64,000 nt of DNA from a virus. Within the stretch, counting starts at the first letter, position 1. Every line of letters starts with the position of its first letter. The DNA lies in the IMG/VR virus record IMGVR_UViG_3300042905_002309, positions 62,001 to 126,000 of that record; one strand, 5' to 3'. The notes beneath the pieces were generated by a model. It saw only the letters and a list, made by a program, of their open reading frames with translations. It was not told the origin of the DNA and did no database searches. The position numbers and the translations under genes are program-made. Below, piece after piece: positions 481-33,257 of this stretch.

Positions 481-1944
481 TTACATGTAGACGTGTGCGG
501 CCCCGGGCACAAAGGCTTCACCAAGACCCTTGACTATCAACAAGTGATAGAACATAGAGCTTCCGAAGATATGATCTACAACACCATAACGTGTAAGCAA
601 ACCAACTCTTGGTGCAAAGTCATTAGGTCCAATTGTGCGTTGAATCATAACCGGGATGTAAGGACAGTATACCAAACCAGTGTCATAATAATCAGCACCC
701 TTGTATCCAAGCAATGCGTATTCTACGATAGCGGTACGTTGACCCTGTTGGTACTGGGCTTCTGTACGTGTATCTCTGTAGATATTAAAACGACCACCGA
801 CTGAACCAACCTTGGCAATACCCGTAGGCTGTGTATTGACAGTTCCATTCACTTGCATGAACTTGAACTCAGGAAGGTTTTCCAAGATTGAACACACTCT
901 TGGTGTTGCAATAATGAAGTTAGCAGGACCACGACGATTGTTGATAGCAATACGGTTTGCTTCAATAATGATACGGGCATACAAGTCACGATTACGTTCA
1001 CCGATCCAACGGGCATCAGCAGAACCAGCGTACCAGAATGAATAACCCTTACCCTTGTTTGTAGGTCCACCAGCGGTTAAGCAGATTTGAACCATACGCA
1101 TAATCATTTCACGGTCAATTTCAGCCTGAATTTCATAACTCATTGCATTGGTCATTTCTGAGTCAATGTCAATACCGTTCATGTTCTTCAAGTCTTGTTC
1201 CAACTCAACGCTCCACTTTGCAGCTAAACGTCTTGTACCAGCTTCAACGCTTGTCTTCTCCATACTGATAGTCATCTGAGGAATCTTACCAGACATTTCG
1301 AATTGAGCAAGAAGGGCTGCTACACCAGAGTCAACTCCATTGTATGCAGGATCAAATACTCCAGCTAAACCAACTAAGCTGTTTGAGCTTACGCCAGTAT
1401 GCATAGTATTAAGATTATTCCAACCAACTTCGGTCTGACCTGAAAGTACTGTATTACTAGTACCTGTCCAAGTATTACCACCAACGCCATTAGCTGTCCA
1501 ACCAGAAGGATCACGACCATCACTATTACCCGTATATCCACCAAGACTGTTATCATCATAGCGGTAACGAAGTGCGAAAGCCAAACCAACGGGTCCACTC
1601 ATAGGCTGAACACCGACGATTTCATTAGTAATCAATTCAGGGAAAGTACGACGAATCATGGGAATTAATACTTTAGGTAAACGTGCGTCACCTGGAGCAT
1701 AATTGTCACCAGAATAAGGAGTACCCATATTTCCACCGCTACCAAATACTCCACCTTGTCCAGCGAAGCTATTTTCGGTCAAATACTTTTCTTGGTTTTC
1801 CAAAAGTACGGCTGTACTTAAACGCTTGTGAGAATCTTCCAAAGCAGGAACCTTATCGGAGCTATAGTCCAAAACGGGTTTCCACTTTTCGAGCAATTGT
1901 GTTGCTCTACTGCGATCTACATATCCACTTGCTTGTGTTATCAT
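481..1944 (-). CDS. 23: major capsid protein precursor, T4 gp23-like
   Basis: 487 residues, close to the 521 of T4 gp23. It builds the hexameric head lattice on the gp22 core and is trimmed by the gp21 protease. The N-terminal region has the YLTE|N sequence (E57), matching the (L/I)xE prohead-protease rule, so the mature protein probably starts at N58. Next come SGDNYAPGDARLP (78-90) and PMIRRTFPELI, equivalent to the MVRRAIP segment of gp23, then VGVQPMSGP. The C-terminal part has YCPYIPV and the RYGVV motif typical of the family. It is last in the prohead operon (21-22-23 order as in T4), with its own late promoter and an AAAAAGGA ribosome site. A 46-residue stretch around the cleavage site recurs in the protein at 29596-30693. 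Confidence 0.95.
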   Translation of the reverse strand: MITQASGYVDRSRATQLLEKWKPVLDYSSDKVPALEDSHKRLSTAVLLENQEKYLTENSFAGQGGVFGSGGNMGTPYSGDNYAPGDARLPKVLIPMIRRTFPELITNEIVGVQPMSGPVGLAFALRYRYDDNSLGGYTGNSDGRDPSGWTANGVGGNTWTGTSNTVLSGQTEVGWNNLNTMHTGVSSNSLVGLAGVFDPAYNGVDSGVAALLAQFEMSGKIPQMTISMEKTSVEAGTRRLAAKWSVELEQDLKNMNGIDIDSEMTNAMSYEIQAEIDREMIMRMVQICLTAGGPTNKGKGYSFWYAGSADARWIGERNRDLYARIIIEANRIAINNRRGPANFIIATPRVCSILENLPEFKFMQVNGTVNTQPTGIAKVGSVGGRFNIYRDTRTEAQYQQGQRTAIVEYALLGYKGADYYDTGLVYCPYIPVMIQRTIGPNDFAPRVGLLTRYGVVDHIFGSSMFYHLLIVKGLGEAFVPGAAHVYM

Positions 1945-2056: not shown

Positions 2057-2980
2057 TTAAACAATCTTTCTTTCGTTTACATCACCCTTCATATAATTAG
2101 CAATTTCTTGTACATAAGAGTACTCAGGAATTTCTCCAGCTTCTTCCTTCTTCTCAAGAATTACTTTAGGTGTATCAAATGTTTTCTGATCAACCTTGGT
2201 AGTTGCTTTTGAAGTTGCTTCTTCAATCTTCTTGGTTTCATCGTGTTCAAACATTTCAGTGACATACTTATAGTTTGATTCGATTTCACTTGGCTTCTTG
2301 CCTTCTAACATTTTCAACACATACTTCTTTTGTTCTGGTGACAAATCTTTGGTCTTCTTCTCAAGAATCAAAGTTGCCTCAGTAGCTTGAAGTTTCTGTT
2401 TAATTTCGGTAGATTCCTTAATTGTAGAATTAAGTTGCATACGAAGTTTTTCAATTGTGTCATGTCCATCTTTAAGTGCAGACTTGAAATTCTCACTAAT
2501 AAACTCAGGATCAACTGCAACAATTTTACGAATTTCGTCCAACATTGTACGAGCACGAATATTGTCACAAGCTTCTTTGAGTTGCTGTGTAGGCATAGCG
2601 GAATCCATATAAAGATCAACAAACTTAGAAACCTTTTCGATTAACTCAACACGGAGAGCTTCTGCTCCTGTTTTATAATCAGCGTCATACTTCTCAATTA
2701 CCTTCTGTAACTTAGCAGTATGTGCGGCATCTAATTGTTCAACGACCTTATGAAACTTAGCTGTATGATCTGCATCAATTGCTTCAATCAAAGAATCAAG
2801 TTTACTGGTATGATCTTCATCCATCTTAGCAAGTTCTGACTCAACTACTAATTGGACTTGGGCTTTGCTTTTCTCTTCAACAGCTTCGTTGAACATAGTA
2901 GCTAAAGTGGTTTTTGTTTCCTCAGTTAATATTTCAGAACTGATTGACTTTAATACATCTTCTATCTTTTTTGTTTCCAT
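2057..2980 (-). CDS. 22: prohead core scaffold protein, T4 gp22-like
   Basis: 307 residues, highly charged and predicted almost wholly helical. It sits between the protease and the capsid gene, the position of gp22 in T4. The internal core protein gp22 nucleates head assembly and is digested by gp21. A roughly 15-residue tandem repeat is visible at about residues 50-105, each unit containing DxDHTxKL or a variant and ending in an IExxD-type helix (about four units). Several (L/I)xE sites that gp21 could cut are present. Sequence similarity to gp22 is weak, so the assignment rests on position, composition and coiled-coil character. Confidence 0.8.
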   Translation of the reverse strand: METKKIEDVLKSISSEILTEETKTTLATMFNEAVEEKSKAQVQLVVESELAKMDEDHTSKLDSLIEAIDADHTAKFHKVVEQLDAAHTAKLQKVIEKYDADYKTGAEALRVELIEKVSKFVDLYMDSAMPTQQLKEACDNIRARTMLDEIRKIVAVDPEFISENFKSALKDGHDTIEKLRMQLNSTIKESTEIKQKLQATEATLILEKKTKDLSPEQKKYVLKMLEGKKPSEIESNYKYVTEMFEHDETKKIEEATSKATTKVDQKTFDTPKVILEKKEEAGEIPEYSYVQEIANYMKGDVNERKIV

Positions 2981-3202: not shown

Positions 3203-3622
3203 TTAATTTTTGGGTATCCATGTGTCTCCACCCATTACAATCTTTTTAATACTACCCACTTTAAATGATCTTGTTACTTTTTGACCATTTCTCGTAACAC
3301 ATAATCTTAATACACCATTTCGGGCATATTGAACTTTGGTATCAAGATTGGGATTACGAGTTTGACTAATATTATGTGAGCCTTTACAAGCCCCTAAACG
3401 TCCTGTGAGAGTCATAAGATCACCAGCTTTTTTGCTAGGATCAGTCTTACTATCTAATTCTCTTACAGCAGTTATCGATAAAATGTCTTTACCAGCTTGT
3501 GTGTGTGCGAACAGAAAGTTCGAAATGTCACTCTCATCTGTTGAATCATCTGTAGTAATATTCTTACGATTTAATGAATATTCACGTAAAGCTTCAACAA
3601 ATAATGTGAAATCTGCTTTCAT
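3203..3622 (-). CDS. prohead operon protein with putative capsid-targeting N-terminus
   Basis: 139 residues of unknown fold. The first residues, MKADFTLFVE|AL, look like the short amphipathic capsid-targeting peptides of T4 internal proteins, with a possible gp21 cut after FVE. The C-terminal half is rich in beta-forming residues (GVLRLCVTRNGQKVTRSF, then SIKKIVMGG). The start codon overlaps the stop of the upstream zinc-finger gene (3622), so the two are translationally coupled within the protease-scaffold operon. A head-internal or core role is inferred from position and N-terminus only. Confidence 0.6.
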   Translation of the reverse strand: MKADFTLFVEALREYSLNRKNITTDDSTDESDISNFLFAHTQAGKDILSITAVRELDSKTDPSKKAGDLMTLTGRLGACKGSHNISQTRNPNLDTKVQYARNGVLRLCVTRNGQKVTRSFKVGSIKKIVMGGDTWIPKN

Positions 3623-4117: not shown

Positions 4118-4789
4118 TTATCCTCTTAATGCTTTCATGAACTGTGCAAAACTCTCAACCATATAAGTATCTACGTCTTTCTTAGGAATAGCGTTAAGTC
4201 TGCATTGTAACGAATCACAAGCTAATTCAACGATTCTTCCACCCTCTGCAATGATATACTGACGATTTTCAGTAATACTTTCGAGAATAGCAGATTGGTA
4301 TGAAGGTTGATGAACAAGGTCAACTGCAATTAAATGGAAATTTTTAACCTTGTTGTACTTGCCTTCTTGAATCAATGAGCCAAGAGCACGACTAGAACAA
4401 CCAAGTTTCACACCATCAATAAGCAACTGCTTAACGATTACACCAGCAGGAGTAGAAAGAATTTTTGATCTACCGTAGAACACATTATCCTTCTGTTCTA
4501 ACTTGGTAATCATATGGCAAGCTTTGTCAAGAGATACGTCAGTAGATTCTTGAGGATGGTTTAATTCACCTAAAGCACGACTTTGTTTAATGAATTCTTT
4601 GTCATATCGGGTAACTTCATTAACCATTTCAGTTAAATCGTAGATACGGTTGTTCTGATTTGGTTGCGAAGCCAACATGTATGGCCCTTGAATATAAACA
4701 CTTCTTGGCTCGTTATTGTTCTTTTCTTCAACAATAACCTCTAAATCTTGGCTAAATTCGGTTTCTCTCAAATATTTTAATACTTGCAT
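4118..4789 (-). CDS. 21: prohead core maturation protease, T4 gp21-like
   Basis: 223 residues (T4 gp21 is 212). This serine protease digests the scaffold and trims the capsid protein and internal proteins after (L/I)xE sites. Catalytic features of the herpesvirus-like prohead protease fold are visible: the GELNHP motif with H78, and GCSSRALG with the nucleophile at S132 or S133. The segment between them (GRSKILSTPAGVIVKQLL) is typical of T4-type gp21. It is the first gene of the prohead operon, with a late promoter (CATAAATA) at 4827 and an AGGAG ribosome site. Confidence 0.92.
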   Translation of the reverse strand: MQVLKYLRETEFSQDLEVIVEEKNNNEPRSVYIQGPYMLASQPNQNNRIYDLTEMVNEVTRYDKEFIKQSRALGELNHPQESTDVSLDKACHMITKLEQKDNVFYGRSKILSTPAGVIVKQLLIDGVKLGCSSRALGSLIQEGKYNKVKNFHLIAVDLVHQPSYQSAILESITENRQYIIAEGGRIVELACDSLQCRLNAIPKKDVDTYMVESFAQFMKALRG

Positions 4790-22509: not shown

Positions 22510-22947
22510 ATGGCAACAAAATTTGAAAAATACTTTAGCAAAACATTGATTAACGAAGCTGTTCCCGCACCTATGAATGATGCGGCTGCGCTTGATGCTT
22601 CCATTGAAAACCCTGCTGATAGAGCAAAATTAGGACAAGAAGTGTCTAATGTGGCTGTTGGTGCTGATAATGTCAACTCAAACGTTGAAGAACTCCGTGG
22701 TATTGCTGATGGTTATGCACAAGAATTGAATTCCATCTTGGAACGTGTTGTTGCCATCCATAATGATATTACTACTGGTTCATTAGCTCAACTTGGTATC
22801 AAAGTAGGTTCAAATATCCTTACAGGTATTCGTGCAGACTTGAGCAAATTAGCACAGGTTATTGGTGGTGGCGCAAATGACGCTATTATTAAACAAGAAT
22901 CTGATAGAGCTAAAGAAGCTACAAAAACTGCTCCTACTAAAGTATAA
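22510..22947 (+). CDS. putative internal head protein with capsid-targeting N-terminus
   Basis: 145 residues. The start MATKFEKYFSKTLINE|AVPAP shows a short amphipathic peptide ending in (L/I)xE|A, the rule for capsid-targeting sequences removed by the prohead protease. The remainder is Ala-rich and helical (VSNVAVGADNVNSNVEEL, LNSILERVVAIHN). The translation start at 22510 is fixed by an ACAGGAG site and a late promoter; an in-frame ATG at 22471 precedes the promoter. The role as an encapsidated protein is inferred from the N-terminus shared with at least five other proteins here. Confidence 0.65.
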   Translation: MATKFEKYFSKTLINEAVPAPMNDAAALDASIENPADRAKLGQEVSNVAVGADNVNSNVEELRGIADGYAQELNSILERVVAIHNDITTGSLAQLGIKVGSNILTGIRADLSKLAQVIGGGANDAIIKQESDRAKEATKTAPTKV

Positions 22948-22950
22948 CGA

Positions 22951-22978
22951 TTGACTTCAATATAAAATATGTTATCCT
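22951..22978 (+). promoter_or_regulatory. early promoter, leaderless type, for primase
   Basis: TTGACT, 16 bp ending TGT, TATCCT, 7 nt (actaggg), ATG. Confidence 0.7.
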
Positions 22979-22985
22979 ACTAGGG

Positions 22986-23993
22986 ATGAAACAATTGCCT
23001 TTCAATTTAGTAGAGAAATATTTTAATATTTACGCAGGACAACCTAAGAAACTCGCAAAGGGTGATTTAAATGGTGGTTGTTGGCATTGCAGAGAAGGTA
23101 AATCTTGGGGTAAAAAACAAAGACTTTGGTTCTTACCTGATAAGGATTTAATTTACTGCTTCAATTGTAACATGTCATGGAATCCTCTAAACTGGATTAA
23201 ACAAGTCTCAGGATTGAATTACAAAGAAATCCTTGAAGAAGCAAATGGCTTTGATCACTTTTATTCAGAGGATGCCGAAGAAGTGTTCACACCCGCTAAA
23301 AAAATGTCTACATTACCACTAGACTCAATTAATTTATCTGATCCAGTTCAAGTTAAGTATTACAGTGATAGTTATGTAGTTCAAGAAGCATTAAAAATCA
23401 TTCATGAACGTAAACTAGATACTTGTGCAAATACTGCTGAATTGTACATCAGTTTGAAGGATTATGTTCATAAAAATCGTATATGTATACCCTTTAAAGA
23501 TAGTGATAATAAAATACGATTTTATCAAACACGAGCAATCTTTCAAAATGACGCAAATCGTGCAAAATATCTTTCCAAAGCTAATGCAGACAAGACTATT
23601 TTCGGGTTGAATAAAATCGATCCAGAATTTGAGTACTTATTAATCACAGAAGGTCCGATTGATAGTATGTTTATTGGTAAGAATGGTGTATCTATGGCAG
23701 GATTAACTATTACCGATCATCAGAAGTCTTTATTAAGTAAGTATATAACTTTTCAGAGGATTTGGATATTGGATAATCAACTTGATAATGAAGATGTAGT
23801 TGAAAAGTACCAGAATCTTATTAAACAAAAAGAACGTGTTTTTATCTGGCCGAAAACTTATAAAGCCTTCAAAGATATTAATGAATTATGTTGCAAGGTA
23901 AATCTCAACTCAATTAAACCTGAATTCTTTATTGATAATTCGTATACAGATTTAAATGCGACATTACGATTGAATGAATCTATTAACCGTTAA
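22986..23993 (+). CDS. 61: DNA primase, T4 gp61-like
   Basis: 335 residues (T4 gp61 is 342). It makes RNA primers with the gp41 helicase. Zinc-binding N-terminus: CWHCREGKS (C32, C35) and YCFNCNMSWN (C58, C61). The TOPRIM fold is at about 217-260 with LLITEGPIDSMF and RIWILDNQLDNED (acidic metal ligands). The leaderless-type promoter lies immediately upstream. The stop overlaps the convergent proline-rich gene by 11 bp. Confidence 0.92.
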   Translation: MKQLPFNLVEKYFNIYAGQPKKLAKGDLNGGCWHCREGKSWGKKQRLWFLPDKDLIYCFNCNMSWNPLNWIKQVSGLNYKEILEEANGFDHFYSEDAEEVFTPAKKMSTLPLDSINLSDPVQVKYYSDSYVVQEALKIIHERKLDTCANTAELYISLKDYVHKNRICIPFKDSDNKIRFYQTRAIFQNDANRAKYLSKANADKTIFGLNKIDPEFEYLLITEGPIDSMFIGKNGVSMAGLTITDHQKSLLSKYITFQRIWILDNQLDNEDVVEKYQNLIKQKERVFIWPKTYKAFKDINELCCKVNLNSIKPEFFIDNSYTDLNATLRLNESINR

Positions 23994-24465
23994 GATATCG
24001 GTAATAATCATCGAAAGGTAAATATAATGATGCATTTATTGGACTATCACTCTTCTTAATAAATTGTCCACTTTTTCTTGGTTGCAATTTAGATCGTCTT
24101 ATTTTTTGAACTCTTGGTGAACTAGTAATTTGTTCTATTTCCGCACTTCTATCAGGTTTTGGTGGTGGTTGCGTCTGAGCTAATCTTAATGAAGATTTTC
24201 CAACAGGTGGAGCTACAACTTTAGGTGTTTGTTCTACTGCTGGTGCAGGTTTCGATGCAGGTGTAGAAACAACTGGTGCAGGTGCAGGTACATTTAAATC
24301 AGGTGTCTCTTCGTCCGATCCAACTCCTTTATCATGAGTTGATTCACCTTCTATCTCATTAAATATATCTACAAACTCTTTTCCATCCTTAGCAAAATCT
24401 GCTGGTCCAATTGGTGGAATTTCAACAGGATTTGATTTATTTTGTATTTTATCTTCTGTATTCAT
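23983..24465 (-). CDS. proline/alanine-rich disordered protein
   Basis: 160 residues. The centre (residues about 50-105) is a low-complexity run of Pro, Ala and Val (NVPAPAPVVSTPASKPAPAV) followed by a basic segment (QKIRRSKLQPRKSGQFIKK). No domain is recognised. It lacks the capsid-targeting N-terminus but is the 3' neighbour of two proteins that have it, and its Ala/Pro composition resembles their linkers and the portal tail. A head-associated role is inferred. Confidence 0.6.
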   Translation of the reverse strand: MNTEDKIQNKSNPVEIPPIGPADFAKDGKEFVDIFNEIEGESTHDKGVGSDEETPDLNVPAPAPVVSTPASKPAPAVEQTPKVVAPPVGKSSLRLAQTQPPPKPDRSAEIEQITSSPRVQKIRRSKLQPRKSGQFIKKSDSPINASLYLPFDDYYRYLNG

Positions 24466-24473
24466 TTTACACC

Positions 24474-25382
24474 TTACAATGTCATATTCGGACCTTTTGT
24501 ATAGGTCTTAATATCACCACCAATAGCTTGTTTAGTTTTATTCCACATTCTACTAAGCGTATCACCTTTTTCTTCTTGTTTATCATATTCTAAAGCTTTT
24601 GCTCTAGTAATATAAATGATTTTAGGTAATTTCGAATTTGCTTGTTCTTGTCGTTTAATATAATCCATCATTGATAATTGGGCAGTTCTCATATTAATAA
24701 TAGGTTCACCTAACTTAGTTTTAATACTATATTTTGCTCTTGATCTAATTTCCATATCAACAAAGTCACTTATTTTTGCATAATTTTGATTTTGTTGATG
24801 TATAACACCAGCAAAAGTTTTATATATTAATAATGGTAACGTTGTATATCCTGCATTAAAGGTTGTTGTATCAGTTATAGCTGGATTACCTTTTATTGTG
24901 CCATCTTCGTCAAATGGTTCACTTATTGCTGCTAATTGACTTTCTAATAATTCTAATAAACGTGTGAGTATAGTCTTACGTTTAGTATAAGTCGCTATGT
25001 TAGCTCTATGACGTTTAGAATTTGCTGTATTTAGATTAATGATAGCACGTTCTAGGTGATCTTGTACATACTCAATCTTTTTCTGTAAATAACCTGTCTC
25101 ATTATTAAATGCATTTTCACGATTTTTAAGTTTATATCCCTTACCTAATGCATCTAAACTTTCACTTCCACCTACCAAATAAAATACACTACTAGCGTTA
25201 TACTTTTCCGCCTTTTTAAATCCTATCCAATCATTACCTCTACCCTTTTTACTCCAATAAGCTTCAAGACTACCCAAAAGATCAAGAGGATTAGATACAG
25301 CAGGAGTACCATCAGCTTCTAATAAAACTGATGGCTCTATGCATTTCTTGGTCTTTTCGATGCTTTGGTTGAACTTATCCAT
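24474..25382 (-). CDS. putative internal head protein with capsid-targeting N-terminus
   Basis: 302 residues. It starts MDKFNQSIEKTKKCIEPSVL and continues LE|ADG, the same (K)F...IE...LLE|AD layout as the protein at 26573-27130. The body is helical with a long basic coiled-coil-like part (EYVQDHLERAIINLNTANSKRHRANI) and no catalytic motif. The start overlaps the stop of the upstream gene (25382). It is predicted to be packaged with DNA or embedded in the core and trimmed after the LLE site. Confidence 0.6.
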   Translation of the reverse strand: MDKFNQSIEKTKKCIEPSVLLEADGTPAVSNPLDLLGSLEAYWSKKGRGNDWIGFKKAEKYNASSVFYLVGGSESLDALGKGYKLKNRENAFNNETGYLQKKIEYVQDHLERAIINLNTANSKRHRANIATYTKRKTILTRLLELLESQLAAISEPFDEDGTIKGNPAITDTTTFNAGYTTLPLLIYKTFAGVIHQQNQNYAKISDFVDMEIRSRAKYSIKTKLGEPIINMRTAQLSMMDYIKRQEQANSKLPKIIYITRAKALEYDKQEEKGDTLSRMWNKTKQAIGGDIKTYTKGPNMTL

Positions 25383-25894
25383 TAATCACCATAATCATAG
25401 TTTTCAGGATCAGCAAATGGGTCTTCTTCAATTTCAGGATTTACACCAAGGGCTTTGGCTTCTTCTGATGACATACTTCCAAGTTGTCTACCTTCACCAG
25501 CACCACCCTCTTCATCTCTATGACCCTTCATTCCAGATGGAGTCTCTTCTTTTGCAAGATTCTTCTCGTACTGATGCTGATCATAAAACTTCTCAACTTC
25601 ATCAAAAGCTGCTGATGGTGAAATTTGACCGTTCTTAACCTGTCCAACAAGTCCCATACCAATCAAAAGCTTAGAATAATTCTTGCGTTCATCATGTGAT
25701 AAATCCACTGATTGCAATGCAAGTACTTCGTGTGCGTCAAACATGTCTTTAGGTCTGTACTTTCTTGACAAGATTGTAGCAACATCTACATCTGCACCTT
25801 CTGCTTCATCTGCAATATCTCCACCTTCAACAGGGGTTGGTTCTGCTGTTAAAGCCTCATTTACCATAATTTTATACAATTGATCAAATTTCAT
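25382..25894 (-). CDS. putative internal head protein with capsid-targeting N-terminus
   Basis: 170 residues. The start MKFDQLYKIMVNE|ALTAEP again ends in a xxE|A protease-type site. It is followed by an acidic, Ala/Gly-rich segment, a helical centre (LSRKYRPKDMFDAHEVLALQ) and a Gly/Glu-rich acidic tail (PEIEEDPFADPENYDYGD). It has a late promoter AATAAATA and an AATGGAG ribosome site. It is translationally coupled to the next internal-protein candidate. Confidence 0.62.
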   Translation of the reverse strand: MKFDQLYKIMVNEALTAEPTPVEGGDIADEAEGADVDVATILSRKYRPKDMFDAHEVLALQSVDLSHDERKNYSKLLIGMGLVGQVKNGQISPSAAFDEVEKFYDQHQYEKNLAKEETPSGMKGHRDEEGGAGEGRQLGSMSSEEAKALGVNPEIEEDPFADPENYDYGD

Positions 25895-25914
25895 GTGTTA
25901 TTCTCCATTTTAAT

Positions 25915-25922
25915 TATTTATT
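25915..25922 (-). promoter_or_regulatory. late promoter of the internal-protein gene at 25382-25894
   Basis: Minus strand AATAAATA-attaaaatggag. It overlaps the stop codon of the upstream gene. Confidence 0.6.
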
Positions 25923-26529
25923 GAATTGCTTCACTAATAAGCGAATCTTTCTCAGAATAAGCTTCACCATCAGGAGTTAAATATAATTTAATTTGCTCTA
26001 TCTTCTCTGGAATACTACCAAAAATCTCAATCATAGGACAAGAACCACCGACTTCATTGAACGGAAATATCCAACTTCGTCCCTTTGTATACGATTCTAA
26101 GATAACACTGTAGAAATTATCACATTCTACATCCTTTTGTTCAACTTTAGCATCATTCTCACCTTTTGCCATGAGTGGAAAATATAATAATACATCATAA
26201 AATGACATACACTGCTTTGTCAACATAATAGCTCTTTGGATCGTAATATCATCAAATCCTGCTTCATCTTTCGAAGCTTTCCAGAAAATATCCACCAAAC
26301 TATCCAAAGATGTATTTAAATGCACTACATTCTTTGTTTTATTATACTCCATTGCTTTATCAATTCTGGCATTTAAAACTTTTAGTTGATCTTTTACTAC
26401 ATCGTCAGGATCACCGAAAGTTAATACAGAACTACCGAAATCGATTTTATAACTAGGCCAAACTTTCTTGAATGCATCAATAAATTCTGCCTGATCTGAT
26501 TGTTTTACTCCACAAAATCCTATTCTCAT
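25918..26529 (-). CDS. P-loop-kinase-like protein with degenerate Walker A
   Basis: 203 residues. The start MRIGFCGVKQSDQAEFIDAFKKVWP looks like the first strand, loop and helix of the nucleoside-kinase-like AAA_28/NadR-type phage proteins, but the loop (GVKQSDQ) lacks the GKS/T of a working Walker A motif. FYDVLLYFPLMAKG (near 112-125) resembles the YDxxIYFP strand of those proteins. It is possibly an inactivated nucleotide kinase used structurally, or a different Rossmann fold. It has a late-type promoter (GATAAATT) and an AAAGGAAAC site and sits inside the internal-protein cluster. Confidence 0.55.
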   Translation of the reverse strand: MRIGFCGVKQSDQAEFIDAFKKVWPSYKIDFGSSVLTFGDPDDVVKDQLKVLNARIDKAMEYNKTKNVVHLNTSLDSLVDIFWKASKDEAGFDDITIQRAIMLTKQCMSFYDVLLYFPLMAKGENDAKVEQKDVECDNFYSVILESYTKGRSWIFPFNEVGGSCPMIEIFGSIPEKIEQIKLYLTPDGEAYSEKDSLISEAIQ

Positions 26530-26548
26530 AATTTGTTTCCTTTACAAG

Positions 26549-26556
26549 AATTTATC
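26549..26556 (-). promoter_or_regulatory. late-type promoter of the gene at 25918-26529
   Basis: Minus strand GATAAATT-cttgtaaagg; the last base departs from the octamer. Confidence 0.45.
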
Positions 26557-26572
26557 ATACTTTGTGGATTAA

Positions 26573-27130
26573 TCAAGTATAATCCTCAGATGTTAAACTT
26601 AATGCTAGTGATAAATCTTTATAAGCATCTTCTGCATTGTCAACAGTTACTTCTTTATATTTTGAAGCAATTTCAGGATTTACTTCGACAGATGATTTAT
26701 CAAACATAGCTTTCCAAGCTAATTTAATCAATTCAAGCTTTTCACCAACTTCAACACCACCTTTTCCACCTTTACCAAAGTTTTTATTAAAATGTCTGTT
26801 GGCAGTAGGTGGTAAACGCTTCTGAATATCTTGTAAAACTTTATCTGCATTATGAATGTTTATTTGATCTGCATTAGTGATCAACATTTTACTCAAATTT
26901 GGTTCAGGTTCGATGTAAGCAGAAACGGCTGTTTGAATTAAAGCTGCTCGTGCTTGAGATGTTGGTTCTTTTTCAACTGGTTCAGGTGCAGGAGCTTCTG
27001 GTGCAGGATTTTCGGCAGGAGCTTCTGTTGCTGCTGGTGCAGTTCCCATATCGGGTGCTGGATTCACTGTAGGTAAATCAGCTTCCAATAACATCTTAAA
27101 TTGTTCGATTAATGTGTCAAATTTACTCAT
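26573..27130 (-). CDS. putative internal head protein with capsid-targeting N-terminus
   Basis: 185 residues. MSKFDTLIEQFKMLLE|AD is a targeting peptide ending in LLE|A. A ~45-residue Ala/Pro/Glu linker (PAPDMGTAPAATEAPAENP) follows, then a helical C-terminal domain (AALIQTAVSAYI, DKVLQDIQKRLPP, GEKLELIKLAWKAMF). The start abuts the stop of the paralogue-like gene at 27131 (1 nt). Packaging inside the head is inferred. Confidence 0.65.
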   Translation of the reverse strand: MSKFDTLIEQFKMLLEADLPTVNPAPDMGTAPAATEAPAENPAPEAPAPEPVEKEPTSQARAALIQTAVSAYIEPEPNLSKMLITNADQINIHNADKVLQDIQKRLPPTANRHFNKNFGKGGKGGVEVGEKLELIKLAWKAMFDKSSVEVNPEIASKYKEVTVDNAEDAYKDLSLALSLTSEDYT

Positions 27131-27685
27131 TTAGACTCCTGTTGTGGGTGCTGGTGCGACTGTGCCAGTTGGTGCAGGTGTGGCAGGTGCTTTTGCTTTT
27201 AATTTTGTAAGATAATCAGAAAAAGTCTTCTGCATAGTCGTATCACCCATAATTTTATCCATAACACTTGGAAGATTTTCGGCTGTTATACCATCTGCAA
27301 CAACGGGTTGACCAGTTTTTGCATCAGTTGGAACAACATTTTGTTTTGGAACACCAGATGTACCCGGTGAAGATGCTGCTGTAGGTGCTGTTACTGGCAC
27401 AGTTGGTGTTATTGCTCTACCTGTTTTTGGATCAATTTGTGGTGTCGTAGGGGAATTTGGTTGAGTTTCTGTGGTTGCTGGTGATCCTGCAATTGGTGAT
27501 ACCGCAGCTTGTCCAGCACCAGTTGTAGCACTAGTGGTGGTATTCGGTGTTGATTGTGCCACTACAGGTTGACCTGTCTTGGGATCAATTTGCGTTGCTG
27601 TTTTAGGTGCGTTAGGTGCTGATACTTGTCCTACAGCTTCATAAATCTTCATTTTTTGTTCAATAGCTCTGTCAAATTTTCTCAT
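27131..27685 (-). CDS. putative internal head protein with repeats and capsid-targeting N-terminus
   Basis: 184 residues. The start MRKFDRAIEQKMKIYE|AV parallels its neighbour (KFD..IEQ.K). Most of the protein is Pro/Thr/Ala-rich and contains three copies of a short motif: IDPKTGQPVV (near 33), IDPKTGRAIT (near 84) and TDAKTGQPVV (near 118). A helical segment (LPSVMDKIMGDTTMQKTFSDYL) follows before a Pro/Ala/Thr tail. It has a late promoter GATAAATA and a CAGGAG site. It is first gene of a two-gene unit. It may be a flexible head filler or decoration, but no enzyme is indicated. Confidence 0.62.
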   Translation of the reverse strand: MRKFDRAIEQKMKIYEAVGQVSAPNAPKTATQIDPKTGQPVVAQSTPNTTTSATTGAGQAAVSPIAGSPATTETQPNSPTTPQIDPKTGRAITPTVPVTAPTAASSPGTSGVPKQNVVPTDAKTGQPVVADGITAENLPSVMDKIMGDTTMQKTFSDYLTKLKAKAPATPAPTGTVAPAPTTGV

Positions 27686-27706
27686 AAATTTCTCCTGTGT
27701 TTAAAG

Positions 27707-27714
27707 TATTTATC
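27707..27714 (-). promoter_or_regulatory. late promoter of the internal-protein pair
   Basis: Minus strand GATAAATA-ctttaaacacaggag before 27685. Confidence 0.62.
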
Positions 27715-27794
27715 AAATGTTCTGCTAAATTACAACTCCAAAAGTATATCTTTGGTATTCTCTGAGCAAAGCGCAGCGTTTATTCAGCTTTGAA

Positions 27795-27990
27795 AATTGA
27801 AAACCTTTTCTTCATTCTTTCTTTCTCTTTTTCTTTATACTTTCTTATTCTCTTTCTTTCTTACTTCTTTGGGAAAGCTTTATAACAGCTTTATAAAGCT
27901 TTATACAGCTTTACAAAAATTTATACAGCTTTATAAAGCTTTGTGCTTTAATTCTTAAAGCTATTATGTATTTATAAAGCTTTAAGGGCT
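27795..27990. repeat. intergenic pyrimidine tract plus AGCTTT repeats
   Basis: The only gene-free stretch over 300 bp (27686-27995). Its plus strand has a long C/T-rich tract (about 27797-27868) followed at 27872-27985 by seven copies of AGCTTT, mostly as aAAGCTTTATAa or cAGCTTTATA, several forming the palindrome TATAAAGCTTTATA. No ORF or canonical promoter was found inside. It could be a replication origin, a protein-binding array or a recombination hot spot; the sequence alone does not decide. Confidence 0.6.
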
Positions 27991-27995
27991 TTATT

Positions 27996-28436
27996 TCATA
28001 GTCTGAACTGGTGGATCGAATGAAAGACTTGTGCGACAAGATCAGGATTCGTCATGAAGGTGTCTCGTTTGCCCAAGAATATTAGATCGGGGTGCGACCT
28101 AGACAAGGACTTGAGTACACCCCTCAAACATTTTCTAAGGCATGAGATATCCACATATTCATATATGCACATATTCGGATTATTGAATATGTTATCCTCA
28201 CGCAAAATGTCGGGAAATGCGACAAATACTTCTTTGATGGTTGGATCAGCAGGTTTATGTTGAATTAAATAATAAATCACAAAATTCGTAAAAAGTTGTT
28301 TTGCTTCACGATTGCGTAAATTAATTTTACCATTTTCGAATAGATTATATGCGTAAATAGAATCCATAATTGTGTTATGGATTTTTTCACGATAAAAATG
28401 ATCAAAATCTATTAATTTAATACTCTGACTTAACAT
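27996..28436 (-). CDS. hypothetical early protein
   Basis: 146 residues, not recognised. It reads as a compact helical protein (QSIKLIDFDHFYREKIHNTIMD, CLRKCLRGVLKSLSRSHPD) without membrane or zinc motif. It has an early-type promoter (TTGAAT-16-TATACT) that leaves 6 nt to the ATG, so it is one of the predicted leaderless early genes. It precedes the repeat-rich intergenic region, which could make it a replication-associated protein, but that is only context. Confidence 0.62.
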   Translation of the reverse strand: MLSQSIKLIDFDHFYREKIHNTIMDSIYAYNLFENGKINLRNREAKQLFTNFVIYYLIQHKPADPTIKEVFVAFPDILREDNIFNNPNMCIYEYVDISCLRKCLRGVLKSLSRSHPDLIFLGKRDTFMTNPDLVAQVFHSIHQFRL

Positions 28437-28442
28437 GCTAAC

Positions 28443-28470
28443 AGTATAGCAGTTTACATGAAAGATTCAA
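28443..28470 (-). promoter_or_regulatory. early promoter, leaderless type, for the gene at 27996-28436
   Basis: Minus strand TTGAAT, 16 bp ending TGC, TATACT, 6 nt (gttagc), ATG. It lies against the stop of the upstream gene. Confidence 0.62.
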
Positions 28471-28915
28471 GTACTATTTTCTCGATGAGTTCTGTTGGAA
28501 GATGTTGGGAATTAGCTTCTTGTAAACACTGTTTAAAATGTTTAGCAATAATGGATAATTCATGTTTGAAGGCTAATTCCTTTTCGTATAATTCGATAGG
28601 AAGTTTTGAAACATCTGTAGCCTTTTCAAGGTAAATATTATGGTTTAAAAGTTCTGTTTTAGAACCAAGCATTTTCTTAACTTTGGTGATATAAGAATCG
28701 ATTGAAGTGTAGGATAATTTTTCTTCAAGTGTTACGGGTTTGTGAATTAAATTACCATTTGCATCAATAACGCCAAGTTTGAATGCATCAGTATTTTTAA
28801 ATGGTTCAGCCAATTTTTTCATAACATATGCAGTTAAAAACGCCTCATTGAGATTGAGTGTTGGATTACTTGCATCACTTTTGCCACATAAAAGACATTT
28901 TTCGTTACTTTTCAT
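28454..28915 (-). CDS. phage protein with FKLGVIDxxG motif
   Basis: 153 residues. It begins with a small CxxC (CLLCGKSD). The stretch KLAEPFKNTDAFKLGVIDANGNLIHKPVTLEEKLSYTSIDSYITKVKKMLG resembles, from memory, a family of uncharacterised myophage proteins with (F/Y)KLG(I/V)ID-x-x-G and a following EExxYT; here it is shown only in outline and is not a proof of function. The remainder is helical. Late-type box TCTAAATA at 28943. Confidence 0.55.
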   Translation of the reverse strand: MKSNEKCLLCGKSDASNPTLNLNEAFLTAYVMKKLAEPFKNTDAFKLGVIDANGNLIHKPVTLEEKLSYTSIDSYITKVKKMLGSKTELLNHNIYLEKATDVSKLPIELYEKELAFKHELSIIAKHFKQCLQEANSQHLPTELIEKIVLESFM

Positions 28916-29357
28916 CGATTATTTCCTTCGCTTCGTTTAAAGTATTTAGAGTTTTTGTTAGATTTTCGATCAAAATTTGCATAGATTCTATCGTAAGTTC
29001 GACAGGTGTGTTATAAACTTGCAATAAGTAAGCATAACGTTCAGGATATTTCTTCATGAACCAATCTGAGAAAATAATACCACCCTTATGTGCGCCAGTG
29101 GCACTAAATTTATGACAATAACAACATAAACTTACAGAATTTAAAATATCCCAAGATAATGCATAATTTTCTCGTCCTATAACATGGTGAGAATTTAATA
29201 TGGTAGGTTTACCCCTTATATTAATTTCTTTATATTTTATTCCACAAAGTTCGCAATAACCTTTATGTCTTCCTATTAACGACCATAATTTCCATGCGTG
29301 TTTTTTTAGTTTTGAAATTGATATTTTTTTATTTATTTTTTTTGGCATATGGTCCAC
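28905..29357 (-). CDS. HNH endonuclease
   Basis: 150 residues from a GTG start (MDHMPKK..., alternative ATG 9 nt later). It has a zinc-HNH layout: YCELCGIKYKE (35-45), ILNSHHVIGREN (52-64) and CCYCHKFSATGAHKGG (77-93). The N-terminus is basic (KKINKKISISKLKKHAWK). It overlaps the GIY-YIG gene at 29329-29580 by 29 nt on the same strand and the next gene by 11 nt, making a two-nuclease mobile block. AGGAAAG upstream suits the GTG. Confidence 0.8.
   Translation of the reverse strand: MDHMPKKINKKISISKLKKHAWKLWSLIGRHKGYCELCGIKYKEINIRGKPTILNSHHVIGRENYALSWDILNSVSLCCYCHKFSATGAHKGGIIFSDWFMKKYPERYAYLLQVYNTPVELTIESMQILIENLTKTLNTLNEAKEIIDEK
28943..28950 (-). promoter_or_regulatory. late-type promoter of the gene at 28454-28915
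   Basis: Minus strand TCTAAATA inside the HNH gene end, 27 nt before the start codon, with GAAGGAAA leader. Confidence 0.5.
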
Positions 29358-29580
29358 GTTTCTTTCCTAGTTGCAATTCTGATCTTTTATGGCATACCTC
29401 TAATGATCTAATTTTACCTTTATTTAAATTATATGCATTTTGTAAAAAAGAATTAGTATGTTTATTATAATATAACGAATGTTTATGAGCATTAATACGT
29501 TTTCTACAATCGATACTCTGACCAATATAACACTTATTATTGATTGTATTTGTTATTTTGTATATACCACATATCTTCAT
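29329..29580 (-). CDS. small GIY-YIG endonuclease
   Basis: 83 residues. The GIY-YIG core is seen as MKICGIYKITNTINNKCYIGQS and DCRKRINAHKHSL, but the protein ends soon after (GKKRGPYAKKNK), shorter than the 1-360 gene. It may be a minimal nuclease domain or a truncated form whose C-terminal DNA-binding part was lost to the overlapping HNH gene. The late-type box TCTAAATA is 6 nt before the ATG, with no ribosome site. Confidence 0.78.
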   Translation of the reverse strand: MKICGIYKITNTINNKCYIGQSIDCRKRINAHKHSLYYNKHTNSFLQNAYNLNKGKIRSLEVCHKRSELQLGKKRGPYAKKNK

Positions 29581-29586
29581 GACAAT

Positions 29587-29594
29587 TATTTAGA
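29587..29594 (-). promoter_or_regulatory. late promoter, near-leaderless type, for small GIY-YIG
   Basis: Minus strand TCTAAATA-attgtc-ATG, gap 6 nt. Confidence 0.55.
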
Positions 29595-29595
29595 A

Positions 29596-30693
29596 TTAAA
29601 TACCTAAAGTCAATTGTCCACCAGTACCTGCGGGTGTGCCATCAATAACGGGTTTAGGGCCACCAACCGATGGAGCAGGATTAGTTCTGTGTGAAAATCT
29701 TGAATCAATTTTATCTTTAATTTCTGGTGTTAATTCTACTGCATCAAAGTTACCCCAATTTGATTTACCTTGTGCTAACATTTTCTTACGATAAATTGCA
29801 ATAGCTTGTAAAGGATTAAATGCCCAAGAAACAGCATAACCACGATAGTCTCTATCAGATGAACCATCTCTGAGTGATATACCATCTTTTCTGATTAAAA
29901 ATGGAGTTTTGGATACGAGAGCTTCATTTAAACGTTTTAAATATTCATGACCTTCTGGTAGACATTTTACTTTATAACCAATACCATATTTTTCCATACT
30001 TCTTGCAACAGGACCACCTCTACCTTTGGCAATATCATCTGGTGAACTTACTGCAAATACAACAACATTTTTATTATCTAAAATTAATCGTTCACCAACT
30101 TTTGGTGGATTTACCCCAACAGGAATATCAAGCGTAAAATATTGACTACCATAACTTTCAGGAGTTGATGTTAAAAATTTGTTATACTCTTTTGACTCAC
30201 GCACAAGCGTTCTGCGAATCATAGGAGTTTTCTGTTTCTTCTTTTTACCCTTACCCTTCGAACCAAATCCTAAAATCTTAGGCATACGAGCATCACCGGG
30301 TGCGTAATTATCACCACTAAATGGTGTAGCTGTAGTTACAACATTAGGGCCAAACATACTACCAGCACCACCTGCCATTGTGTTTTCTTTTAAATCTTTT
30401 GCATCCATTTCAGCAACCATATCTTTAAAACTCTGCTTAACACCCCTTTTAAGTTTGCCTTCCATTTTGTCCAATTCTTTGTAATAATCGGAACCGATTT
30501 TAGAGTCTTTCTTCTTCGGAAATTCGGCTGTATGCTGTTTTGCAATTTTTTCGGCTTTTTTCTGATCATCGGTGTGCTCTTTTTCTATTTTAGAACCTTT
30601 TTTAATCATTTTAGGATCGAAATCTGAGGTTTTAGTGCCTAATAGGTCTACTACTTCATTTAAATGTGCTTTAAAAATGTCTAAAAATTTCAT
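29596..30693 (-). CDS. internal-head-type protein carrying a capsid-protein N-arm copy
   Basis: 365 residues from MKFLDIFKAHLNE|VV, a targeting-type N-terminus. After a Lys-rich coiled segment comes LKE|NTMAGGAG (E103), then SGDNYAPGDARMPKIL (126-141), a basic insert GFGSKGKGKKKKQK and TPMIRRTL. This repeats the capsid protein's LTE|NSFAGQGG, SGDNYAPGDARLPKVL and PMIRRTF in the same order. The C-terminal ~190 residues (YFTLDIPVGVNPPKVGERLIL, DDIAKGRGGPVARSMEKYG, YRGYAVSWAFNPLQA) form an unrecognised domain. The start at 30693 follows an AGAGGATAA site; an upstream ATG is rejected. A capsid-bound or packaged cargo is inferred. Confidence 0.72.
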   Translation of the reverse strand: MKFLDIFKAHLNEVVDLLGTKTSDFDPKMIKKGSKIEKEHTDDQKKAEKIAKQHTAEFPKKKDSKIGSDYYKELDKMEGKLKRGVKQSFKDMVAEMDAKDLKENTMAGGAGSMFGPNVVTTATPFSGDNYAPGDARMPKILGFGSKGKGKKKKQKTPMIRRTLVRESKEYNKFLTSTPESYGSQYFTLDIPVGVNPPKVGERLILDNKNVVVFAVSSPDDIAKGRGGPVARSMEKYGIGYKVKCLPEGHEYLKRLNEALVSKTPFLIRKDGISLRDGSSDRDYRGYAVSWAFNPLQAIAIYRKKMLAQGKSNWGNFDAVELTPEIKDKIDSRFSHRTNPAPSVGGPKPVIDGTPAGTGGQLTLGI

Positions 30694-30939: not shown

Positions 30940-31159
30940 AAAGACTCCCATGAGGGCTTTAAAAATCGTTTTTAATGATGGTACTGATCCAAAAGAGATC
31001 GAGATTGGTAAATATACACAGATTCTCAAACCACTTAACAAAGTATTATTTCACATGGATAAACTTGATGATGGTAAAATCCTTTTGATTGTAGGTGCAG
31101 ATTTTGTGGAAGACTTTCGTAAAGTCGATAGAATTGAAGTAGTAAGGAATGACATATGA
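30929..31159 (+). CDS. hypothetical small protein upstream of uvsY
   Basis: 76 residues from MNTKKTPMRALKIVFNDG. It is beta-rich (LKIVFNDGTDPKEIEIGKYTQI, KILLIVGADFVEDF), a likely small barrel or sandwich. It overlaps uvsY by 4 nt (ATGA). A function in recombination is suggested only by coupling. Confidence 0.6.
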   Translation: MNTKKTPMRALKIVFNDGTDPKEIEIGKYTQILKPLNKVLFHMDKLDDGKILLIVGADFVEDFRKVDRIEVVRNDI

Positions 31160-31563
31160 GTACACTTAAAGAAACGTTAGCAAAATACACAGCAGAGATA
31201 AATGAAGACATACATTTAGATAGAGTAAATGTGTCGGATATGGTTTTAAAGGTACCCGGAATTAAACATAAATGGGTTGCACGTTTAATGAATCATAAAG
31301 CAGATGTATTAGAATTAATTGAAGCACGAGAGACAGCAATTTCACATCTTATTAAGAAAATTAAATCCGAATCACCAGTAACCATCAACGATTTACTTGC
31401 CAGTAAAGAAGCTGAAAGACATGAATTAATCACTAAAGTCGATAAAGAAATGCGTGATCAGCGTAATATTATCGAATATCTTGAAAAGGTAGAAAAACTC
31501 ATGTCACAGATTACTTTTGATATTAAAAATCTCACTGAATTAAATAAACAAGAGACAATGTAG
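31156..31563 (+). CDS. uvsY: recombination mediator, UvsY-like
   Basis: 135 residues (T4 UvsY is 137), highly helical. UvsY loads UvsX on gp32-coated ssDNA. The pattern is LDRVNVSDMVLKVPGIKHKWVARLMNHKADVLELIEAR, then a linker, then KVDKEMRDQRNIIEYLEKVEKLMSQITFDIKNLTEL, matching the two-helix-block layout of UvsY proteins of T4 relatives. It directly precedes uvsW as in T4. Assignment rests on size, pattern and synteny. Confidence 0.75.
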   Translation: MSTLKETLAKYTAEINEDIHLDRVNVSDMVLKVPGIKHKWVARLMNHKADVLELIEARETAISHLIKKIKSESPVTINDLLASKEAERHELITKVDKEMRDQRNIIEYLEKVEKLMSQITFDIKNLTELNKQETM

Positions 31564-31607: not shown

Positions 31608-33257
31608 ATGCACATAGTAATAGATTTAGATTCAGTAAGGGATAAAGGCATTATAAAGAGTGATTCACTCGATATGATACGTGAATTCTTTTCTGAGGCT
31701 GACCCAAAGGCCAGTTTGATGAAGAATCTTTACAAATCAAAGGCACGTTTTATACCATCACGAAAGTATGCTATTACAGAAGCAGGACGTTTTGAATTAG
31801 GTTTATTGGTTGATATAATCAATTACATAAAGAGTTTAAATGCCCCATTCAGAATTATATTTTCTGAACAATTTAAAGCTCGTTATCTATCAGCATATCC
31901 CTTTGCAGAAGAACCATTAACAAAATTGAGTTTGGAATTATATGATTTCCAGCGTATAGGTGTAGTTAAAGCATTGAAGAATGGAAATGGATTACTTATT
32001 GAACCTACTGGTGCAGGTAAGACTTTAATGCAAGGAACTATTATTGCTACTGTAATGGCTCACAAACCAGAAAGCAGAGTATTATTAATCACACTCACAC
32101 ATTTAATTGACCAAATTTACAACGAATTGGTATCATACGGTATTGATCCAATTAATATTTCAAGATGGTCTGGTGGACACGAATTAGATCGTAGTAAAAG
32201 TATTGTAATATGTGGACCAAATATTCTTTACAGTAAAATAGATAATGTAGAACTTGAGATGAAAAAGGTGAAGATTATTTTTCTTACTATGAAAAAAACC
32301 TATGATACAGATCAAAGTCTATCACCTGCCGCTAAATCGAAGTTACAACTACAAATGCGTGAAGCGAAGGATAAACTTGAGTCACTTGAAGTGAAACTTA
32401 CAGAGAATAAAGTTATCCATAATTTCCTTGGTGAGATTGATTTACTTATTGCAGATGAAATCCATTCATGGAAAAAGGACGGAGAAATCACCAACGTTTT
32501 GAAGTACATAAACACACGTAATCGCTTCGGGTTTACTGGCACGTTACCAGAAATGAAGATCGATCAATGGAGTATTATTGGACATTTTGGCCCTATTGTC
32601 CATGAATCTAAACGTGAACAACTTGTAGCTGATAAACACATTTCTGATACAGATGTACGTATTATATTATTAGAGCATAAGAGTCCACCAAACTTCAAGC
32701 CACCACATATAAGTGAGCGTGAGGAAGATGAAACTTCAACGGAATATTATGAACGTGAATTGGAGTATATTCATCATAACGTATTCAGAAACAATGTAAT
32801 TAAAAAGATTGCCGATAAAACTGCAAAGAACACATTAATTTTGATAGATCGTCTTGAACATGGTGATTATCTATATGAATTTTTGAAATCAAATTTACCT
32901 AATAAAGAGGTTTATTATATTAAAGGAGAAGTTGAAGATGAGGAACGTTCAAAGATAACCGCTTTAATGGAGAAGCAAGACAACGTTGTTTGTATTGCTA
33001 TGTCGAGAATATTCAGCACAGGTGTAAACATCAAAAACTTGCATTATATTGTGTTCACTTCGGCAGGAAAAGCCAAAGTAAAAAACATTCAGAGTATCGG
33101 GCGTGGAGTCCGTAAGTTAGAGGGTAAGATTAAGGTAGTTATTTTCGATTTATGCGATAACCTTTTCTACTCTATGAGACATTTAGATCAAAGGACTAAA
33201 GTATATGACAATGACCAAATCAGTTACCAAATCACCAAAATTAAAGAAAGTACTTAA
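31608..33257 (+). CDS. uvsW: DNA/RNA helicase UvsW
   Basis: 549 residues (T4 UvsW 503). This SF2 helicase unwinds R-loops and branched DNA and helps switch T4 to recombination-dependent replication. Visible motifs: Q-like LYDFQRIGV near 117, Walker A EPTGAGKT near 131-138, Walker B ADEIHSW near 282, motif III GFTGTLP near 307 and motif VI QSIGRGVRK near 499. An insertion with a coiled coil lies between Ia and II (KSKLQLQMREAKDKLESLEVKL). It overlaps the sigma factor gene by 53 nt. Confidence 0.93.
   Translation: MHIVIDLDSVRDKGIIKSDSLDMIREFFSEADPKASLMKNLYKSKARFIPSRKYAITEAGRFELGLLVDIINYIKSLNAPFRIIFSEQFKARYLSAYPFAEEPLTKLSLELYDFQRIGVVKALKNGNGLLIEPTGAGKTLMQGTIIATVMAHKPESRVLLITLTHLIDQIYNELVSYGIDPINISRWSGGHELDRSKSIVICGPNILYSKIDNVELEMKKVKIIFLTMKKTYDTDQSLSPAAKSKLQLQMREAKDKLESLEVKLTENKVIHNFLGEIDLLIADEIHSWKKDGEITNVLKYINTRNRFGFTGTLPEMKIDQWSIIGHFGPIVHESKREQLVADKHISDTDVRIILLEHKSPPNFKPPHISEREEDETSTEYYERELEYIHHNVFRNNVIKKIADKTAKNTLILIDRLEHGDYLYEFLKSNLPNKEVYYIKGEVEDEERSKITALMEKQDNVVCIAMSRIFSTGVNIKNLHYIVFTSAGKAKVKNIQSIGRGVRKLEGKIKVVIFDLCDNLFYSMRHLDQRTKVYDNDQISYQITKIKEST

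Follow-up and report, generated by a model that had tools for sequence, protein, structure and literature searches.

The window analysed here is a stretch of 64,000 nucleotides within a virus record of 248,016 bases. The record is T4-like, and gp23, gp20, gp21 and gp22 were recognised in it. The best matches of its gp23 in the phage collection reached about 34-35% identity, and the virus therefore appears to belong to a lineage without a close isolate there. The genes concerned are listed below; ORFs are called by their first coordinate, the short N-terminal peptide of a tagged protein is its tag, and an arrow marks the predicted cut.

481..1944, minus strand: gp23 major capsid protein (phrog_138 7.2e-88), predicted cut YLTE57↓N58
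2057..2980, minus strand: gp22 scaffold (phrog_237 7.6e-4; PF25623 5.6e-6, just below cut-off)
3203..3622, minus strand: 139-aa protein between genes 21 and 22, tag MKADFTLFVE↓A
4118..4789, minus strand: gp21 prohead protease (Peptidase_S77; PF03420 5.7e-21, phrog_207 6.4e-50)
22510..22947, plus strand: 145-aa tagged protein, tag MATKFEKYFSKTLINE↓A, acidic mature part
24474..25382, minus strand: 302-aa tagged protein, tag MDKFNQSIEKTKKCIEPSVLLE↓A, basic mature part (pI 9.5)
25382..25894, minus strand: 170-aa tagged protein, tag MKFDQLYKIMVNE↓A, acidic mature part
26573..27130, minus strand: 185-aa tagged protein, tag MSKFDTLIEQFKMLLE↓A, Pro/Ala-rich linker and helical domain
27131..27685, minus strand: 184-aa tagged protein, tag MRKFDRAIEQKMKIYE↓A, low-complexity body with DPKTGQPVV-type repeats
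29596..30693, minus strand: 365-aa tagged protein, tag MKFLDIFKAHLNE↓V, then DUF5661, gp23-arm copy and C-terminal domain
31156..31563, plus strand: uvsY (PF11056 above cut-off), syntenic anchor
31608..33257, plus strand: uvsW helicase, syntenic anchor used for fetching relatives

The preliminary description had proposed that six or seven ORFs of the window begin with a short amphipathic peptide and a prohead-protease site. All seven ORFs and the junctions quoted for them were present, each with a short N-terminal segment leading to hydrophobic-x-Glu and a small residue. This gp21-type site is also the type found in gp23 of relatives, and gp21 at 4118..4789 is the presumed processing enzyme of the tagged proteins. 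The propeptides measure 10-16 aa in six of the proteins and 22 aa in 24474 (T4-type range about 10-19 residues); in T4, propeptides of 10-19 residues on the internal proteins (IPs) act as capsid-targeting sequences, CTS (PMC9026906). The statement that several members share KFD..IEQ was slightly generous: the motif is exact in 26573 and 27131, whereas 24474 carries a relaxed KFNxxIEK and 25382 has KFDQLYK. A Shine-Dalgarno-like sequence precedes most of the seven starts; none is obvious before 24474, whose start overlaps the stop of 25382. As a possible sign of late expression, an octamer resembling TATAAATA with one mismatch lies before 22510 (TATAAAGA, 27 nt upstream), 25382 (AATAAATA, 28 nt upstream) and 27131 (GATAAATA, about 29 nt upstream); in the whole record, 36 of 291 genes carry such an octamer.

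Library profile searches found no defence-related domain among the tagged proteins of the window and no match that would point to the suggested injection or action against host defences. Searches of cultured phages returned no match for 22510, 24474, 25382, 26573 or 29596, and viral contigs gave only identical copies of 24474, 25382 and 29596, plus a DUF5661 match for 29596. An apparent match of 22510 in L236/L237 was rejected as spurious, being an unrelated short frame.

The 29596 protein is composed of the following parts, all on the minus strand.

30655..30693: N-terminal tag MKFLDIFKAHLNE, 13 aa, read from the sequence
30457..30618: DUF5661 domain, residues 26-79 (PF18905 E=3.8e-5)
30205..30384: gp23 maturation junction and N-arm copy, residues 104-163 (BLASTP, phmmer, alignment)
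30229..30270: lysine-rich insert of 14 residues (142-155) within the arm copy, seen as a gap when gp23 is aligned by BLASTP
29599..30204: C-terminal domain, residues 164-365 (no Pfam or PDB relatives)

The arm copy, which the preliminary description had missed, is the most informative feature; it reads LKE↓NTMAGGAGSMFG...SGDNYAPGDARMPK, with a second predicted cut at KE103↓N104, and its source is the phage's own gp23. BLASTP aligned the two proteins with E=8e-10 and 54% over 41 columns, interrupted by the K-rich insert; the match covers only residues 123-163, and the junction is visible from residue 103. The copy also matched a 73-aa protein of a relative at the same locus (phmmer 7.8e-17). 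Whole-length homology to the capsid protein is absent, with no Pfam gp23 match, and no second gp23-family match was found in the 248-kb record. The DUF5661 domain scored 24.4 of the 27 bits of its curated cut-off, just below it, and passed in the whole-genome search (27.6 bits with neighbours). It lies between the tag and the arm, and exposure of the arm would therefore need the second cut. For the C-terminal domain, no relatives were found in PDB sequences, Pfam or the genome contigs, and AlphaFold gave a pLDDT of 36. Next to 29596 lie an HNH-type gene (28905-29348, minus strand; PF01844 7.1e-4, just below cut-off) and a short GIY-YIG gene (29329-29580, minus strand), a pair that occupies the place of a GIY-YIG-like gene of about 138 aa (GHW...FGFIY) in relatives.

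When 29596 was compared with related records, two kinds of sequence matched: the gp23 of relatives, and small ORFs 73-90 codons long. The small proteins share one design: an amphipathic tag, LxE, a start like that of mature gp23 (DNTAGxGGVFG...SGDNYAPGDARIP) and a polybasic tail. In many of the relatives fetched with uvsW as the anchor the gene is divergent from uvsY (uvsY-uvsW), the same place as that of 29596. With an HMM built on the small proteins, 58 short ORFs were retrieved (57 judged true) together with 67 long ORFs; among the matches listed, 12 of 12 long ORFs were gp23 aligned at exactly the arm region. At the protease junction of the small proteins, the amphipathic peptide stands where gp23 has its propeptide; these tags end in E with a hydrophobic residue at P3. 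In gp23 itself, LxE↓[N/A/S/G/D] stands directly before the arm in most of 33 relatives. Tags of the family such as MSKFDLLYNTLME↓S and MSKFNKLFSLFME↓E resemble those of the window, for example that of 26573; P1' is Ala in the window cluster and mostly Asp, Glu or Asn in the family, and the junction is less tidy in some members. The mature small forms have 55-108 aa, a median pI of 10.5 and a median net charge of +10.

The stand-alone form has been kept at the same locus, with the same architecture, in about 57 diverse relatives, which makes it very unlikely that the copy in 29596 is a functionless relic of gene duplication, even though a longer protein surrounds it there and an insert splits it. 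The arms fit the gp23 of their own phage better than that of others (permutation P=5e-5, 12 records with both genes; GQYGNQFPSQNDTAYAPGDARIPK vs GAYGNQFPSQNDNAYAPGDARLPK), a fit that is confounded by shared descent and in which the own gp23 ranked first in only 4 of 12 pairs. Extended members also occur. The arm-copy proteins at L173:418-1035 and L195:3297-3920, about 206 aa long, carry a further domain at the C-terminus; these domains looked ADP-ribosyltransferase-like by eye (YRG, SYVS), an assignment that found no support in Pfam or PDB. Those at L190:2924-3343 and L146:1984-2553 are extended by a Cys/basic segment, DUF5872-like by eye.

Least credence is given to the idea that the arm copy acts as a decoy or effector towards a gp23-recognising host factor, for example a Lit/Gol-type EF-Tu system, and is not a capsid part. 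The copies of some relatives finish with a PIIRRTF-type segment, which may overlap the Gol activator region. In T4 gp23 this activator occupies a short stretch of the first quarter (PMC3014915), whereas the copy mainly covers the stretch just past the cleavage site. Moreover, the C-terminal feature that the copies share is a polybasic tail, the cleavable head tag suggests a location in the head, and no host factor is known for this phage.

In cultured phages, two tblastn queries with arm copies returned nothing and missed gp23 itself, the low-complexity filter or the query length being limiting. Small genes near gp23 or uvsY in S-WAM1, S-SCSM2R, HTVC008M, S-SSM7, DSL-LC03, P-RSM1 and Cr30 were inspected and are not arm copies, and the regions of AG-345-L05, D479 and Aswh_1 were covered by an automatic motif scan only. 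Because the queries missed gp23 too and only a few regions were examined, the case for absence of the arm copy from cultured phages is weak.

The preliminary description had called for a search for the N-terminal motif in the rest of the genome. We counted [LIVMF]xE↓[AS] with E at residue 9-23 in the 291 ORFs of at least 80 aa of the 248-kb record, with the expectation taken from protein interiors. The motif was found in 23 genes against 10.6 expected (P=6e-4). By itself it is thus a real but weak signal, enriched about twofold genome-wide; about half of the isolated matches are chance, and a single occurrence means little. In the region of the window cluster the tag is present in 6 of 13 genes. 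A score matrix trained on 45 tags of relatives (hand-filtered, with five set aside and a few re-entered by hand) was modestly enriched in this genome, and most window members ranked middling. In the syntenic block of relatives the motif occurred in 38 of 115 gene clusters vs 13 of 92 on the opposite strand (P=0.001).

A Glu-rich proteome will contain many short amphipathic starts with Glu, and the twofold excess, the weak matrix enrichment and the motif-bearing clusters of the opposite strand would all fit N-terminal motifs that are mostly chance. We consider this improbable in view of their concentration in one syntenic block, their recurrence in relatives and, in dozens of phages, the fusion of peptides of this kind to the gp23 junction. 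The reading of the window peptides as gp21-removable targeting tags is strong, on indirect support, because the arm-copy proteins of relatives join like tags to the gp23 maturation junction; it is this comparison, not the motif alone, that makes capsid targeting a strong reading.

Tag-like starts also occur outside the window. A second set, with Ser after every site, spans genome positions 140,852-154,168 (L005:16852-17812, L006:2254-4863, L006:10386-11168): MKTFKQFILE↓S at 140,852, MKTFKQFMLE↓S at 141,432, MKTFSEFINE↓S at 146,220 and MNLFEQMYKDVLLNE↓S at 153,386. This set includes one GNAT acetyltransferase (Acetyltransf_7 1.4e-7) and one weak nucleotidyltransferase match. A poly(A) polymerase/CCA-adding-type protein (L010:12272-13732, genome 231,272-232,732; PF01743 1.2e-28) begins with MNTFNKLYNSLTE↓A, which may be a chance tag. 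The N-terminal part ASQELVDKWLPMMNYSSDSW of a 182-aa protein (L010:2758-3306, genome 221,758-222,306) recalls the gp23 propeptide ATQLLEKWKPVLDYSSDKV.

Among the window proteins, 26573 has a family of 36 tagged ORFs in relatives, beside the arm-copy gene; the family HMM matched 26573 with E=2e-9, the only convincing match in the record. Structure prediction was informative only for this protein. The AlphaFold model has an N-terminal helix (residues 3-17) that stops at the predicted cut, with block means of pLDDT of 88 and 76, and a fold search with it returned nothing significant. In relatives, other tagged genes are also found in the block next to the arm-copy gene. Tag-like starts such as MKTFKQFVTE↓A and MKTFKQFFFE↓E were seen in relatives at L205:2868-3416, L174:1315-1914, L175:1151-1753, L207:1312-1923 and L207:1920-3173, on nucleotidyltransferase-like and DUF6267 proteins. 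For L207:1312 (CTP_transf_like) and L207:1920 (DUF6267) the assignment has Pfam support; the remaining ones were assigned by eye, and L205:2868 has no Pfam match.

The mature parts of 22510, 25382 and 26573 are acidic (pI 4.4-4.8), and those of 29596, 24474, 27131 and 3203 are basic. T4 internal proteins are basic. Because the three acidic mature parts are unlike these, 22510, 25382 and 26573 are no less likely to be core or filler proteins. The 3203 protein, which has a homologue at L046:3318-3782 (N-terminus MSKGKKNRFEDVFVSLVLE↓A), may be a core protein, judging from its position between genes 21 and 22. The tagged proteins might then mostly be scaffold or core components like gp67 and gp68, which are targeted, cut by gp21 and degraded, and neither kept nor injected. 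Degradation by gp21 is the fate of gp22, gp67 and gp68 in T4 (PMC9958956), and the low-complexity body of 27131 would also suit this role. We nevertheless regard it as unlikely for the set as a whole, though worth weighing, as 29596 and 24474 are basic with large bodies and the tag is carried in relatives by a cytidylyltransferase-like enzyme and a DUF6267 protein, which would be odd for a scaffold.

The suggestion that the window holds a head-targeted set with gp21-type removable N-termini, larger than T4's handful, agrees with the presence of gp21, gp22, gp23 and gp20 and with the joining of relatives' tags to the gp23 junction. A gp21-processed set of tagged head proteins is well supported as a prediction from sequence. 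The best explanation of the whole, which we think is probably correct, is that the cluster encodes late, tagged head proteins that are cut by gp21, with docking through the arm and a polybasic hold on DNA. The amphipathic peptide would serve as a capsid-targeting sequence and bring each protein into the gp22 core. After the cut behind Glu by gp21, the mature part would stay in the head with the DNA or be degraded as core. The 29596 protein would be an enlarged form of the clade-wide arm-copy protein, and once cut, its N-terminus would be nearly that of mature gp23. In T4, this N-terminus forms the N-fist and N-arm upon expansion (PMC9958956), and the N-fists facing the portal are disordered (PMC7136217). 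The arm may dock into the gp23 lattice at an N-fist/N-arm site; the surroundings of a vertex or of the portal, where arms are without partners, would be one such place. In T4, DNA is contacted by lysines of internal proteins (PMC3012670); the polybasic stretch here would hold the packaged DNA and link the shell to the genome. In 29596, the arm would also anchor an extra domain as cargo.

As in T4 IPI, IPII, IPIII and Alt, a short N-terminal peptide leads to a gp21-type Glu site, the bodies vary and there are several genes per phage (PMC9026906). Unlike them, the window set is larger, several bodies are acidic and one member copies the gp23 arm; no similarity of body sequence was found. The CTS has been suggested to let T4-like phages pack varied proteins (PMC9026906). 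Like the T4 vertex protein gp24, the arm copy is a second gp23-related protein with a (predicted) N-terminal gp21 cut, but gp24 has the whole capsid fold and the copy has only the arm and the polybasic tail. In phiKZ/SPN3US-type heads, many proteins have propeptides cut after Glu and are packed with DNA (PMC9026906), as is predicted here from sequence; these phages are a different lineage, and no arm copy was found in the literature searched.

The new element appears to be the cleavable gp23-arm copy with a polybasic tail, of which a limited literature search found no description. We tentatively propose, at somewhat less than even confidence, that in a clade of T4-like phages such copies make up a dedicated class of proteins inside the head: the capsid-maturing protease would expose a like N-terminus on them and on gp23, so that the small protein docks to the shell and ties it to DNA, and some, such as 29596, would mount cargo domains. 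Fusions of tag and gp23 junction, seen in dozens of phages, argue strongly at the level of sequence for removal of the tag by the capsid protease, and this would make the tagged proteins predictable across an entire uncultured clade. Should the proposed docking hold, the arm-copy protein would be a new link from shell to DNA and might serve as an anchor by which cargo is loaded into heads.
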